A DNA stretch of 13,485 bases from Candidatus Kaiserbacteria bacterium (GTDB lineage: Bacteria; Patescibacteriota; Minisyncoccia; Phycocordibacterales; UBA2100), in NCBI GenBank assembly GCA_026985835.1, contig JALSPS010000041.1, positions 1-13,485 on the forward strand, given 5' to 3'. Numbering within the stretch: the stretch's first letter is position 1; every line of letters begins with the position of its first letter. This document shows, piece by piece, positions 8,199-13,485 of this stretch. The position numbers and the translations under genes are program-made. The notes under the pieces were generated by a model. That model was given only the letters and a program-made list of their open reading frames with translations, searched no databases and was not told where the DNA came from.

Positions 8199-8522
8199 AT
8201 GTTATTAAAATTATCCATAATGGTTTTGACATTAATTGCAATTTCAGCATTCGTACCCGGTATATATGTTGCCGGAATTTATACATCCATCATCGTTGCA
8301 ATCTTTATTGGTGTTGCAAATCTCACAATTAAACCAATTTTAACAATTTTGACATTACCAATTCATATCATCACATTTGGTGTATCATCTTTTTTTATAA
8401 ATGCATTTATTTTTTGGTTCATTTCAACTTTCGTAAAAGGATTTTATGTATCAGGACTTGTCCCGGCATTAATTGGATCGCTGATAATATCAATTGTTGG
8501 GGCAGTTACCTCGCGTCTGTAA
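8199..8522 (+). CDS. Small four-helix membrane protein, YvlD / phage-holin-IV family (PF04020-like)
   Basis: The 107 residues are almost entirely hydrophobic and form four membrane helices (about 3-22, 27-47, 53-77 and 83-104). The conserved pattern is present: ANLTIKPILTILTLPIHIITFG (39-60) with its paired prolines, INAFIFWF (67-74), and a final GSLIISIVGAV run. This matches the bacterial family annotated as mycobacterial four-helix phage holin or YvlD. Members sit in ordinary chromosomes and their biochemical role is not established; the name does not imply a phage here, and no phage gene lies next to it. The repressor-type gene begins 44 bases after its stop, so the two may share a transcript, although a possible -10 (TATGAT, 8548) lies between. 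Confidence 0.88.
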   Translation: MLLKLSIMVLTLIAISAFVPGIYVAGIYTSIIVAIFIGVANLTIKPILTILTLPIHIITFGVSSFFINAFIFWFISTFVKGFYVSGLVPALIGSLIISIVGAVTSRL

Positions 8523-8566
8523 GGTGGCATTGTAAAATTTACTTTAGTATGATAAAGTGTTTTCAT

Positions 8567-8845
8567 ATGGATAAGAAAATACATAAACAAAACATTGAAG
8601 AATTTTGTATGGCTATAAGTAACCAAAAAATGGCTACAATAAAGGAATTTTTAACTACAATTTTGACAGATAAGGAATTAGAACAGATAACAATGAGGTG
8701 GCTTATCGCAAGAATGCTATATGCCAATTTTTCATGGCAAAAAATAGAGAAAATAACCGGTGCAAGTTCGGCAACTATTGCAAATGTGAACAGAATAATG
8801 AAAAAACGCAATGCAGGACTATATGTTATCCTCGATAAAATGTAA
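8567..8845 (+). CDS. TrpR/YerC-family DNA-binding repressor
   Basis: A 92-residue all-helical protein of the Trp-repressor superfamily, YerC/YecD type. The second half carries the typical layout: RWLIARMLYANFSWQKIEKI followed by TGASSATIANVNRIMK (residues about 64-79). The GA-x-x-ATI pattern corresponds to GAGIATITRGSN in the E. coli TrpR recognition helix. Members dimerise and bind palindromic operators; whether this one senses tryptophan or anything else cannot be seen. The frame is open further upstream, but those codons overlap the previous gene. ATG 8567 (MDKKIHKQN) gives the family's usual length and lies 13 bases after a possible -10, TATGAT (8548-8553); ATG 8549 is the alternative. 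A 16-bp palindrome resembling the trp operator lies 18 bases after the stop. Confidence 0.85.
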   Translation: MDKKIHKQNIEEFCMAISNQKMATIKEFLTTILTDKELEQITMRWLIARMLYANFSWQKIEKITGASSATIANVNRIMKKRNAGLYVILDKM

Positions 8846-9964: not shown

Positions 9965-9980
9965 TTAGTTATCCACAATC
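9965..9980 (+). promoter_or_regulatory. Shared upstream element, copy 1 (contains a DnaA-box consensus)
   Basis: TTAGTTATCCACAATC contains TTATCCACA (9969-9977), the perfect DnaA-box sequence. It ends 41 bases before the ATG at 10022 and just upstream of the likely -35. A second copy with 14 of 16 identical bases precedes the next gene (11068-11083). Confidence 0.5.
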
Positions 9981-10021: not shown

Positions 10022-11059
10022 ATGGGAGATGTGTTATTTAAAAAACATGTTGATAGGGTTGTGTTGGATGGAAATATATTTCTTTCGGCAGCTCGTTTGG
10101 CCGATGTGCTCGATTATTCTCGTGATTATATCGGTCAGTTATGCCGTAAAAAAACTCTTTCATGTAAAATGGTTTCTGGGGTTTGGTATGTGGATCAATC
10201 TTCAGCTACTAATTATTTTTCCTCTAAAAAGTTAGATTTGACTGCTTTTAATAATACTCCGGAATCATTAAAAGACTATAGAACAGGAACGTTTATAACT
10301 GATAATCAAGATGAGTTTATTTCTACTACAGTAGCAGCGAAAATTTCGGGTTATACTCAAGATTATATTGGTCAATTGGCAAGAAAAAGGGAAATATCCG
10401 CAAAAAAAATTGGGAGAAAGTGGTTTGTTGCCAAGGATGAATTACTATTACACAGAAAATCAAAAGACGAAATGTTTAGAGAAGTACAAGCCAAATCGGC
10501 TGGATTGGATATTAATTCAACCCGAAAAACAAATAATATCTCCAAGACTGTACCAATAAAAAGACATCTTTCTGATTCAATTAATTTTCCGATTAAATAT
10601 GAAAGTGATACAAATTCGCCACTCATCCCTCTGCATACAAATTTAACTGATACTAAAAATGTTTATTTATCCAGGTTGGCAAATAAGAGTAACGAGGATA
10701 CAAGTTCTTATCCAGAAAATGCTACTGTGTCAAAATTATTGGATCCTACACAGAATACTAATCGTAGATTTAATAGTAAAGACAAGGATACCCCTGAAAC
10801 TATGGATATCGGATATACGAGAAATGCTTTTCAGAGTAAAAATCACACAATTGCCCGACATTATTCCATCTTTTCGTTTATTTTTTCAATATGCTTATTC
10901 TTATTGTCTATTTTTCTCTTCCTTTATTCTTTAATTGCTGTGGGGGTCGCGGGTAATTTTTTGGAGAGTAATATCTTTTTCAAAGATTATGCAAAACCAA
11001 TTCAAAATATATTTTGGAAAACCATCCCTCAAAAAAATATTCATATAAACGCCTCATAA
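10022..11059 (+). CDS. Membrane-anchored protein with two helix-turn-helix domains
   Basis: The 345 residues start with two copies of one small helix-turn-helix module of the MerR/excisionase type. The first (about 19-67) has LDYSRDYIGQLCRKKTL and VWYV; the second (about 98-145) has SGYTQDYIGQLARKREI and RKWFVAKDEL. Such modules normally bind DNA. A polar, low-complexity linker (about 146-278) rich in Asn, Ser, Thr and Lys leads to one long hydrophobic segment (about 281-311). About 34 residues follow on the far side. The positively charged flank before the helix predicts the HTH domains in the cytoplasm. The next gene shares the same module and the same layout with a large ectodomain. Candidate roles are a membrane-tethered regulator or an anchor touching DNA; neither is shown. 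The ATG at 10022 follows the -10 directly; an in-frame TTG at 9986 would add 12 hydrophobic residues. Confidence 0.85.
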   Translation: MGDVLFKKHVDRVVLDGNIFLSAARLADVLDYSRDYIGQLCRKKTLSCKMVSGVWYVDQSSATNYFSSKKLDLTAFNNTPESLKDYRTGTFITDNQDEFISTTVAAKISGYTQDYIGQLARKREISAKKIGRKWFVAKDELLLHRKSKDEMFREVQAKSAGLDINSTRKTNNISKTVPIKRHLSDSINFPIKYESDTNSPLIPLHTNLTDTKNVYLSRLANKSNEDTSSYPENATVSKLLDPTQNTNRRFNSKDKDTPETMDIGYTRNAFQSKNHTIARHYSIFSFIFSICLFLLSIFLFLYSLIAVGVAGNFLESNIFFKDYAKPIQNIFWKTIPQKNIHINAS

Positions 11060-11067
11060 ATCTGACT

Positions 11068-11083
11068 TTAGTTATACACAGTC
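11068..11083 (+). promoter_or_regulatory. Shared upstream element, copy 2 (contains a DnaA-box consensus)
   Basis: TTAGTTATACACAGTC includes TTATACACA (11072-11080), which fits TTATNCACA. It differs from copy 1 (9965-9980) at only two positions. It lies in the loop of a small inverted repeat, TGACT (11063-11067) with AGTCA (11080-11084), and ends 53 bases before the ATG at 11137. Confidence 0.5.
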
Positions 11084-11111
11084 AAATTCTTTGTAATCCG
11101 AAATAATAAGG

Positions 11112-11122
11112 TAAAATATACT
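11112..11122 (+). promoter_or_regulatory. Probable -10 region of the HTH-fibre gene
   Basis: TAAAAT (11112-11117) and TATACT (11117-11122) overlap. With TTGTAA (11091-11096) as -35 the spacing is 15 or 20, neither ideal. Transcription would begin near 11129, leaving a leader of about eight bases without a Shine-Dalgarno sequence. Confidence 0.35.
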
Positions 11123-11136
11123 TATATCGTTTTTAT

Positions 11137-13485
11137 ATGAGTGATAAAAAAAGAGAATTTATTTCAGTTTTAGAGGCGTCCAAATTATCTGGATATACTA
11201 CTGATTATATAGCTAAGTTATGTCGTGATAAATCAATCATATGCATTCGCAATGGAAAAAAATGGAATGTTAATAAAAAATCAATAGATGATTTTTTGAT
11301 AAATCAAGAACTATTAAAAGCCAAGAGAGCAAAGCAGCTTTCCCAAAATAGAATATTGGAACGAACACAATATAATTTTAGTAATAATTCTTTAAAGAAT
11401 TCGCCACTGGACAATAATTCTAAAGAGTTACATTCATATACAGTACGACCAAATTTGGTTTTAGAAAATGCAAAAAAAACCTACTCCACAAAAAAAGTGA
11501 AAACCAAGCTTAATAACACACATACAGTACATCAATATAATTCAGGGGTATTCTTACAAAAAATTTTGGCTTTCATAACAGCTATTGCGATAGTATTTTC
11601 AACATATTCATTTGCTGACGCATCTTTTGCCAGGCTTATTTACCGTCATATATCCTCCCTTGCATATGAGTTTAATTTAGATTTTAAAAATTCACTTGAG
11701 GATATCGCAAATTTGGACGACTCTATTTCAAATAAACTTTCAAAAACAGATTTTATAAATTCACCATTCTCAGCAAATGTTTTAAATGCAGGAAATGGTT
11801 TTCTTGATACTTTAATATCCGGGTTACAACTAATTGGCGACAAGATATCAGATAAATTGGCGCGTAGAGATTTATCCGGTAACTTTTTATTATCTGGCGC
11901 AGAAAAGGCCAATGTTGATATTTATATAAAGGAGTTAATGCCTAATTCTTTTGCAAAATCCAATAAGGAAATAGTTGACCATAAAAAATATACTCAATAT
12001 AAATTATCTTCTGTTCCAAATATAAAAACAGTAAATAAAACAATCAAAAAAGAAATCTATATACCGATTTATAAACCTACATCTTTATCAATTGAACTGG
12101 TAGATAAAAAGATTGAAGAGCTTGAAAAAAAATTGAATGCAAAAATCTTAGAGTATACAACTTCAAATAATTTTGGAGTACAAAATAACTTTAATACAAT
12201 AGCTTTAACTCAAAGAATAGATAATTTATCCGGTGTTCAAATATCGGGCTCAACAATTACGAATTCAAATGCAAATCTTAATTCTCTTACTGTCTTCGGT
12301 GATACAAATCTTGCGAACTTAAGTGTAGGTAACCTTACATTTAATGGCATAATTACAACCCCGCTCTCACAAGGGGTTGTACATACTAATTCTTCCGGAG
12401 AGCTGATTTCCGCAACGGGTACCGCATATACTCTCACTCGTTGGGATTCAAATGGAAATGCTCTTACGGATTCTATAATCACAGACGATGGAACGGTAGC
12501 AACCACAACTGGTGATTTTATTGTTACCGGTAGTACGAATTTACTCGGGAATACAACAGTAGAAGGAGAATTTTCTACGGTTGGTACGACCACCCTTGCA
12601 ACCACAACAGTCTCAAATGCAACAATAACAGGAGATATTGAGGTAAAGAAAAATCTTGCAGTAGATGGTTCAAGCACACTCGCAACAACAACTGTTATCG
12701 GGGATTTAACGGTTAGCGGGACAACATCATTTGGTAGTACAGCAACCGCAAGTTCCACAATTACAAATTTACACTATACAAATGCAACGGGCACAAATTC
12801 TACAACAACGAATGCCTATGATACAAACTTATTTGCAGACAATGCAACAACTACGATATTGTATTCAACAGATTTTACATCTGATAATGCAACAATTACG
12901 GAAGCCATATTTACAAACGCAACCTCAACAAATTTCTTTACTAACGCGCTCAACACGCTTTCTGCTTCAATATCAAACACACTTACCGCTCTTAAGGGTA
13001 TGTTCACGAATATAGAGGTTGCAGATACCGCAACAACGACAAATTTGGTTGCAACAGGCGCCGTTCATTTACCAAACCTTCCGAATACAGGAACTCAAAG
13101 TGATGTTGTATTGGTACGCGATGCGAATGGAGATATTAAAACAATATCAATGAATGATGTTGGAAGAACAACACTCCAAGCGCTTGATGATACAGTGTTG
13201 TCAGCGTTAGCAGATGCAGATATGATTATTTATGATGCTTCAACAGGCAAGTGGTACAACAAGCAAATCACCGGAGATGTATCAATCGCAAAAGATGGTA
13301 CGGCAACAATTCAAGCAAACGCTGTGGCGCTCGGCACCGATACAACAGGTAATTATGTTGCCGACTTAAATGCTGGTTCAGGTATACAAATATCTGGAGC
13401 AGGATCAGAGAGCGCAACACCTACAATTACCGCAACACTAGGCGACTCAATTGAATCAAGCGAAATCACAGATGGCACAATTACA
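11137..13485 (+). CDS. Giant surface-fibre protein with an N-terminal helix-turn-helix domain (3' end outside window)
   Basis: The frame is open from ATG 11137 to the window end: 783 residues with no stop. Residues 8-54 are the same helix-turn-helix module as in the neighbour (SGYTTDYIAKLCRDKSI, then KKWNV). A basic linker (about 58-135) precedes one hydrophobic segment (about 138-159) ending in YSFADASFA. Beyond it lie a helical stretch (about 165-265), a short coiled coil (LVDKKIEELEKKLNAKILEY, 321-340) and a Thr/Ser/Asn/Ala-rich ectodomain. The latter holds tail-fibre-like phrases (LTRWDSNGNALTDSIITDDGT, about 433-453), strand repeats sharing STLATTTV-type cores (about 483-530), twelve pentapeptide repeats (543-602) and, from about 650, blocks such as KWYNKQITGDVSIAKDGTATI common in phage tail-collar fibres. 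The expected role is a surface adhesin; the cytoplasmic DNA-binding-type domain is unexplained. The protein has only three cysteines so far, all before residue 40. Confidence 0.88.
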   Translation, partial: MSDKKREFISVLEASKLSGYTTDYIAKLCRDKSIICIRNGKKWNVNKKSIDDFLINQELLKAKRAKQLSQNRILERTQYNFSNNSLKNSPLDNNSKELHSYTVRPNLVLENAKKTYSTKKVKTKLNNTHTVHQYNSGVFLQKILAFITAIAIVFSTYSFADASFARLIYRHISSLAYEFNLDFKNSLEDIANLDDSISNKLSKTDFINSPFSANVLNAGNGFLDTLISGLQLIGDKISDKLARRDLSGNFLLSGAEKANVDIYIKELMPNSFAKSNKEIVDHKKYTQYKLSSVPNIKTVNKTIKKEIYIPIYKPTSLSIELVDKKIEELEKKLNAKILEYTTSNNFGVQNNFNTIALTQRIDNLSGVQISGSTITNSNANLNSLTVFGDTNLANLSVGNLTFNGIITTPLSQGVVHTNSSGELISATGTAYTLTRWDSNGNALTDSIITDDGTVATTTGDFIVTGSTNLLGNTTVEGEFSTVGTTTLATTTVSNATITGDIEVKKNLAVDGSSTLATTTVIGDLTVSGTTSFGSTATASSTITNLHYTNATGTNSTTTNAYDTNLFADNATTTILYSTDFTSDNATITEAIFTNATSTNFFTNALNTLSASISNTLTALKGMFTNIEVADTATTTNLVATGAVHLPNLPNTGTQSDVVLVRDANGDIKTISMNDVGRTTLQALDDTVLSALADADMIIYDASTGKWYNKQITGDVSIAKDGTATIQANAVALGTDTTGNYVADLNAGSGIQISGAGSESATPTITATLGDSIESSEITDGTIT
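12763..12942 (+). repeat. Twelve tandem pentapeptide repeats (15-base period) inside the fibre gene
   Basis: Residues 543-602 divide without gaps into twelve pentads such as TNLHY, TNATG, TNAYD, TNLFA, DNATT, TDFTS, TNATS and TNFFT. Position 1 is Thr or Asp, position 2 mostly Asn (also Ile, Asp, Glu), position 3 Ala, Leu, Phe or Ser, and position 4 alternates Thr and large residues. This fits the pentapeptide-repeat consensus [STAV][DN][LF][STR]x, which folds as a four-sided right-handed beta-helix. The fold is inferred. Confidence 0.65.

Follow-up and report, generated by a model that had tools for sequence, protein, structure and literature searches.

In a contig of a member of the Patescibacteria, a fibre gene (hereafter gene 2) encodes a helix-turn-helix (HTH) domain, a membrane helix and the start of a fibre in one frame, and an imperfect palindrome of ~31 bp, newly found here, lies directly upstream of it over a −10-like element. 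With a probability of about 0.5, the fibre is anchored by a signal-anchor helix, and its cytoplasmic winged HTH binds the palindrome in its own promoter, so that the gene would be autoregulated, repression being the likeliest mode. A role of the HTH at DNA is suggested, though not proven, by the palindrome itself and by the association between the type of the recognition helix and the half-site found upstream; binding through the fibre's own HTH and the repressive sign are putative. The window, i.e., the whole stretch of DNA that was analysed, comprises 13,485 bases and represents the entire contig C41 of a 495.7-kb assembly (G000), which is 78% complete.

Architecture of the Fibre Gene

Gene 2 (11137..13485, forward strand) is a single open frame running from the ATG at 11137 for 783 codons up to the contig end; since the contig stops at 13485, the gene is truncated, and complete relatives exist. 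The continuous order of HTH, membrane helix, coiled coil and fibre, described in the first-pass annotation, is thus confirmed up to this point. The encoded protein begins with a winged HTH (11146..11316, delimited by fold prediction and by the profile A5, which includes the window sequence), followed by a basic linker (11329..11559; 12 K/R and 4 D/E) and one membrane helix (11563..11616; residues 143–160 according to hydropathy, flanked by K142 and D161). Further downstream, a coiled-coil-like stalk segment, VDKKIEELEKKLNAKILEY (12100..12156, beginning at residue 322), and a threonine/serine-rich, fibre-like ectodomain were recognized by eye; the latter starts at approximately 12230 and is cut at the contig end at 13485. 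The truncated window fragment of gene 2 displayed no PHROG match.

A cleavable signal peptide in place of the anchor was considered and is held unlikely for the family: 18 uncharged residues between K and D argue otherwise, and a fixed A-x-A motif was not seen by eye across the family. It may yet apply to the window protein, in which ADA does occur. A second fibre-like gene of the same assembly (contig C26, L104:445-1242, reverse strand) possesses a signal peptide-like start (ANA-FD, by eye), lacks an HTH and has a stalk resembling that of gene 2 (QPVIER...). The presence of such a gene, with an apparently ordinary signal peptide and without an HTH, suggests that the HTH is dispensable for exporting fibres of this kind.

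Fold and Conservation of the HTH Domain

Residues 1–86 of gene 2 are predicted to fold as a MerR/Xis-type winged HTH (mean pLDDT 89.8) continued by a long helix, in line with the earlier assignment of the N-terminus to DNA-binding-type HTHs. The recognition helix, D23–R30 (DYIAKLCR), is referred to here as the R/K type; a predicted 40-residue helix comes next. The domain (residues ~8–54) scored 12.9 bits with HTH_17 (PF12728), under the Pfam cut-off of 27, which was passed by the upstream gene 1 (33.9 bits) and by two of the five relatives tested (L049 and L040); it is 45% identical to an HTH of gene 1. One of the relatives is annotated in a database as an “excisionase family DNA-binding protein”. 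The top fold matches to the predicted HTH included BldC (in DNA complexes) and Xis, and the same list contained packaging proteins, CbpM and IF2; no Foldseek match was found at E ≤ 0.001. Solved structures searched by sequence with A4 gave nothing at E ≤ 0.1, and none of the 7,999 candidates scored in the protein search with window residues 1–440 reached E ≤ 0.001.

Among five segments compared across the family, the HTH was the best conserved, which argues for its translation; the linker was weakly conserved (mean identity 0.16). The most conserved columns of the HTH (D23, Y24, L28, G40 and W43) are situated in the recognition helix and the wing.

Distribution of the Architecture

Matches to residues 1–434 were found in 44 of the 59 genomes searched (own included). 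Forty stretches from relatives revealed the same arrangement as the window locus; they harbour 13 complete fibre genes spanning 1,262 to 5,970 aa with an unbroken frame, and three short versions of gene 2 (236, 274 and 283 aa). The relatives identified by name (n = 28) included 15 Ca. Kaiserbacteria, five Parcubacteria, two Ca. Nomurabacteria and two Patescibacteria. As judged by similarity to the window proteins, and with the stretch length set by the analyst, secA was present on 18 of the 40 stretches and obg on 11. In terms of their outer parts, complete proteins of this type match phage tail fibres, some of them with Peptidase_S74, which lies towards the C-terminus and hence beyond the cut in gene 2: this domain (PF13884) exceeded the Pfam cut-off in three of five fibre proteins (L050, L051 and L047, not L049 or L040), and PHROG tail-fibre families were matched in both relatives tested. 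Unlike phage fibres, gene 2 resides in a chromosomal setting and includes a membrane helix and an HTH. A phage origin found no support at the reach of the own family: of the 52 pattern matches that A3, composed of seven own-family sequences, picked up in viral_contigs, not one was confirmed.

The order HTH–membrane helix–long frame was encountered repeatedly, both in the class and in further classes of Patescibacteria. Of the 286 genomes sampled from the class, 151 had an HTH match at E ≤ 1e-4, at least 67 of them in an open frame of ≥700 aa; in 40 class stretches picked for long frames, the HTH was followed by a hydrophobic segment in every case. Fibre-like repeats were seen by eye within the first ~700 residues in seven of ten class frames (not in L152, L155 and L165). 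Across the phylum, 285 sampled genomes yielded 51 with a match at E ≤ 1e-6, and 14 further stretches picked for long frames, 12 of them from outside the class, displayed the HTH in all 14 and the hydrophobic segment in 13; in L193, no such segment followed the HTH in the stretch searched. Hence, the initial notion that an HTH and an extracellular fibre rarely share a polypeptide does not hold for this lineage, where this architecture is common, and the frame between the two was intact in the relatives examined. A chance or assembly fusion of the two parts was rejected in view of the order retained in relatives. In G022 (L045/L046), a region of ~33 kb comprises a two-HTH gene, a palindrome-bearing gene for a short HTH–membrane protein, and a pair of giant HTH genes (3,116 and 5,386 aa).

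The Neighbouring Gene 1

Directly upstream of gene 2 lies gene 1 (10022..11059, forward strand; 345 aa if translated from ATG 10022, its likely start), which encodes two further HTHs of this kind, both of the GQ type (profile matches at 10052-10228 and 10304-10465), and a membrane helix (10868-10942); it belongs to the locus of gene 2. Of the 39 gene-2 entries, 28 were preceded by a gene 1 on their own stretch, in 27 cases at a distance of ≤711 bp. In the congener G002 (L074), gene 1 is present, gene 2 is absent from that place, and no palindrome above 12 bits occurs on the stretch; the gene following gene 1 there is, presumably, a glyceraldehyde-phosphate dehydrogenase. Elsewhere in the window, a frame between secA and obg (8414-8845) has homologues on 8 of the 40 stretches; we take its end to resemble a TrpR/YerC-like repressor.

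The Promoter Palindrome

The imperfect palindrome (11099..11129, forward strand, ~31 bp), a candidate operator defined by the motif search, is centred on TAAAAT (11112..11117), a putative −10 element assigned by consensus. It was first spotted by eye; expectation-maximisation, started from 120 seeds taken from 39 regions upstream of gene 2, then converged on the same motif, CCGAAATAtCTAGTAaAATATAGaTAnATCG. In 426 kb of stretches scanned on both strands, most regions of which also trained the matrix, 27 distinct sites exceeded 20 bits; 26 of these preceded HTH genes belonging to this type of locus (that in L055 including a second site within the same gap), and one was inside a gene 1 (L041). 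With a centre 1 bp longer permitted, sites of ≥17 bits were located within 170 bp upstream of the HTH in 29 of 38 non-duplicate single-HTH genes of the training stretches and in 13 of 19 held-out loci; nine genes and six loci, respectively, had no site at this threshold. The genes lacking it include the extra giant genes in L045 (a 3,134-aa frame), L047 (2,984 aa) and L069, and most genes outside the own family (L050, L051, L067 and L070). In L060 and L077, the palindrome is situated ~0.45–0.5 kb upstream, outside the 170-bp range; L094 carries an altered version (10.9 bits), and L100 has a site visible by eye before the matched gene and another, of 23.7 bits, before a different HTH gene.

A strict degenerate pattern, which misses variants, including the site of the window and those whose centre is longer by 1 bp, gave 17 matches in 15 of 59 whole genomes (own included) versus two for the reversed control. 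Fifteen of the 17 were at these loci, and two elsewhere, both in G046. Two matches precede short versions of gene 2 (G022 and G007), another, in G007:C9, was assigned to the locus solely from a gene 1 on the same contig, and that in G029 precedes a frame with two HTHs that the contig end truncates; 13 of the 15 matched genomes have one match only. In its own assembly, 78% complete, the window palindrome is unique at up to three mismatches. No genome-wide regulon was found with the palindrome in the 426-kb stretches, the 59 genomes or the own assembly. The idea that a sensor would relay host contact to genes elsewhere found no support: the palindrome recurs only before genes of the gene 2 type and their short versions.

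The conserved bases of the palindrome occupy symmetric positions. In the congener G003, both inner arms depart symmetrically from the family (GTCTT...AAGAC), and G001 deviates likewise except at one base. A different palindrome, ATCTCG-N6-CGAGAT, is borne by the promoter of an HTH–fibre gene from another family (L118) and has one change in L122. Over 30 sites, pairing between arms of the same locus amounted to 203 versus 195 for arms shuffled between loci (sd 4.2; reached in 40 of 1000 shuffles), with G-T pairs at 22 versus 20.5; for 13 sites with the longer centre, it was 95 versus 92.8 (305 of 1000). Since arms of the same locus pair barely better than shuffled ones, and the conserved bases are symmetric, a DNA dyad fits better than an RNA hairpin, and the latter reading is disfavoured. 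The TAAAAT/TATTAT core is −10-like, so a protein bound there would probably block the promoter. Operators of the MerR family are located between −35 and −10; the palindrome described here is centred on the −10-like TAAAAT, as assigned by consensus.

Another signal nearby was tried and rejected as specific to the locus. The nonamer TTATACACA (11072..11080, forward strand) is one letter off the DnaA-box-like TTATCCACA, which occurs in the window at 9969-9977. The latter has 21 copies in G000 versus four for the reversed control; such nonamers stand directly upstream of many genes of G000 in gene orientation, including genes of this locus, and several copies precede other genes. On the first stretches, all 23 noncoding copies point at the next gene start, and ten more are in coding sequence. 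Some of the G000 genes just downstream of TTATCCACA are, as we assume, dnaA and pilins.

Association of HTH Type with the Half-Site

The half-sites found upstream vary with the type of the recognition helix. Among genes with GQ-type helices (n = 66), CGAGAT was upstream in 38 and CGAAAT in six; among those with R/K-type helices (n = 59), the respective counts were nine and 25. For these 125 classified HTH genes, Fisher’s test gave 1e-6 (CGAGAT) and 2e-5 (CGAAAT), the words having been picked after viewing the sequences and the statistics ignoring phylogeny. When CGAAAT was widened by its variants CGAACT and CGATTT, it was found in 47 R/K-type versus 11 GQ-type genes. The counts omit the duplicates L046, L119 and L121 and merge identical upstream regions; two of the 127 genes fell into neither helix class, and the regular expression matched few of the distant loci L147–L181. 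Restricted to fibre or open frames, CGAGAT was found in 9/14 GQ-type vs. 8/51 R/K-type genes (p 7e-4) and CGAAAT in 4/14 vs. 23/51 (p 0.36). Outside the own family, the figures were 12/20 vs. 2/8 (p 0.21) for CGAGAT and 3/20 vs. 3/8 (p 0.31) for CGAAAT; within it, CGAGAT was upstream of 26/46 GQ-type and 7/51 R/K-type genes. This pattern supports the view that each HTH type would read its own promoters.

The co-divergence test leaned the other way, tying the operator to the HTHs of gene 1 rather than to that of the fibre: over 36 loci, partial Mantel correlations of operator divergence were 0.20 (71 of 2000 permutations) and 0.23 (33 of 2000) with the two gene 1 HTHs, and 0.08 (454 of 2000) with the fibre HTH. 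This set was made without the duplicate L046, the near-identical L057, L060, L077 and L093, loci lacking two gene-1 HTHs, HTH matches of <38 residues, operator scores <10 and second genes per locus. On balance, the HTH of the fibre is favoured over those of gene 1 as the putative binder by about two to one.

Proposed Mechanism and Alternatives

According to the preferred reading, gene 2 would encode a very long surface fibre held by its N-terminal signal-anchor helix. The HTH end of the chain would be synthesised first; upon insertion of the anchor, the cytoplasmic MerR/excisionase-type winged HTH would occupy the imperfect palindrome over the −10 of the gene 2 promoter, and autorepression would hold the fibre number low, the gene possibly being kept close to the membrane during synthesis of the chain. 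The conserved DNA signal at the start of many fibre genes suggests a role for the fibre, acting from the membrane, in regulating its own synthesis. One point against own-promoter binding is that a dyad operator does not match a trimeric fibre, if the fibre is trimeric. A bolder and decidedly tentative version, which we hold to be rather improbable as a whole, is that giant fibres across Patescibacteria act as membrane-bound transcription factors of their own genes, the own promoter being practically the sole genomic target: the HTH, emerging first from the ribosome, would catch the gene at the membrane and halt initiation during synthesis and export of the chain, and fibre occupancy outside the cell would then time the next one. 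For V. parahaemolyticus, it has been proposed that regulators residing in the membrane capture a gene there (excerpts of PMC9977878).

The most serious competitor, unlikely but by no means far-fetched, is gene 1: this two-HTH membrane protein may bind the palindrome, with the fibre HTH acting as a co-binder, a competitor or a tether near the gene 1 complex. Its frequent position upstream, the two HTHs per chain suiting a dyad and the Mantel correlations speak for it, but the HTHs of own-family gene 1 are of the GQ type, which goes with CGAGAT upstream of such genes, and in L049 and L063 the palindrome occurs on stretches that show no gene 1 ahead of it. This last argument is weak, given that the fibre gene of L049 itself carries two HTHs and that G020, the genome in question, encodes a gene 1 on another contig (L059). 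Another reading, to which we would give little credence, is a contact sensor, in which a ligand on the fibre would alter the cytoplasmic HTH, releasing or activating its promoter, as in ToxR/CadC. The single-pass topology, with the HTH inside and a long part outside, suits it, and transmembrane one-component regulators are an established kind (excerpts of PMC10269533), but no second recurrent palindrome target was found beyond this gene type, and the poorly conserved linker speaks weakly against mechanical coupling. Contact sensing confined to the gene 2 promoter and tethering of the chromosome are both conceivable, and a link of fibre regulation to host contact is speculative.

HTH folds are also reused for protein contacts, e.g., in RodZ, which combines a cytoplasmic HTH binding MreB, a single membrane helix and an outside domain. 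A comparable non-DNA role of the gene 2 HTH in anchoring or localisation, the palindrome serving an unrelated regulator, appears similarly improbable; it would accommodate CbpM and IF2 in the fold list and the nine of 38 genes with an HTH and no palindrome at 17 bits, but it sits poorly with the association of recognition-helix type and half-site and with the peak of conservation in the recognition helix and wing. Given the palindrome at the own promoter and the helix–half-site association, of the meanings initially offered for the HTH, a role at DNA is favoured and that of a spacer disfavoured. As for an assembly or gene-calling artefact, with the HTH and fibre wrongly joined or translation beginning after the HTH, it is next to inconceivable: the window gene is cut by the contig end in an incomplete assembly, but the same order is intact in >60 other genomes, including the one-contig G013, G027 and G160, and the HTH is the best-conserved segment.

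Relation to Known Systems and Significance

The candidate regulator from gene 2 shares with RodZ the layout outlined above; it differs in that a promoter palindrome accompanies many of the HTH–fibre genes. From BldC, MerR and phage excisionase winged HTHs, it differs in being membrane-anchored and fused to a fibre, its identity to the three best chains being 6–13%. A DNA-binding-type domain and a membrane helix in one chain, the feature of one-component regulators, are present in gene 2 according to the profile, fold prediction and hydropathy. In this respect, it is similar to ToxR, CadC and VtrA/VtrB, which have a DNA-binding domain inside, a membrane helix and an outer part (excerpts of PMC10269533 and PMC9977878). 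Unlike these, its HTH is of the MerR/Xis type, its outer part forms a fibre that can reach thousands of residues, and its only recurrent candidate operator is at the own promoter. No description of the architecture appeared among the open-access papers listed by the literature searches, most subscription papers and preprints being outside this search; a word search in the available parts of PMC10269533 and PMC11573180 gave no mention of Patescibacteria, and the available part of PMC12281837 mentions no surface fibre.

Host recognition and attachment by ultrasmall, mostly uncultured bacteria is largely an open question. A DNA-binding-type domain in giant fibres, many of whose genes bear a conserved site in the promoter, would couple a surface structure to its expression, and the HTH and the 31-bp palindrome represent a short, testable DNA–protein pair. 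If the proposed autoregulation is true, structural surface proteins would join the range of membrane-bound transcription factors.
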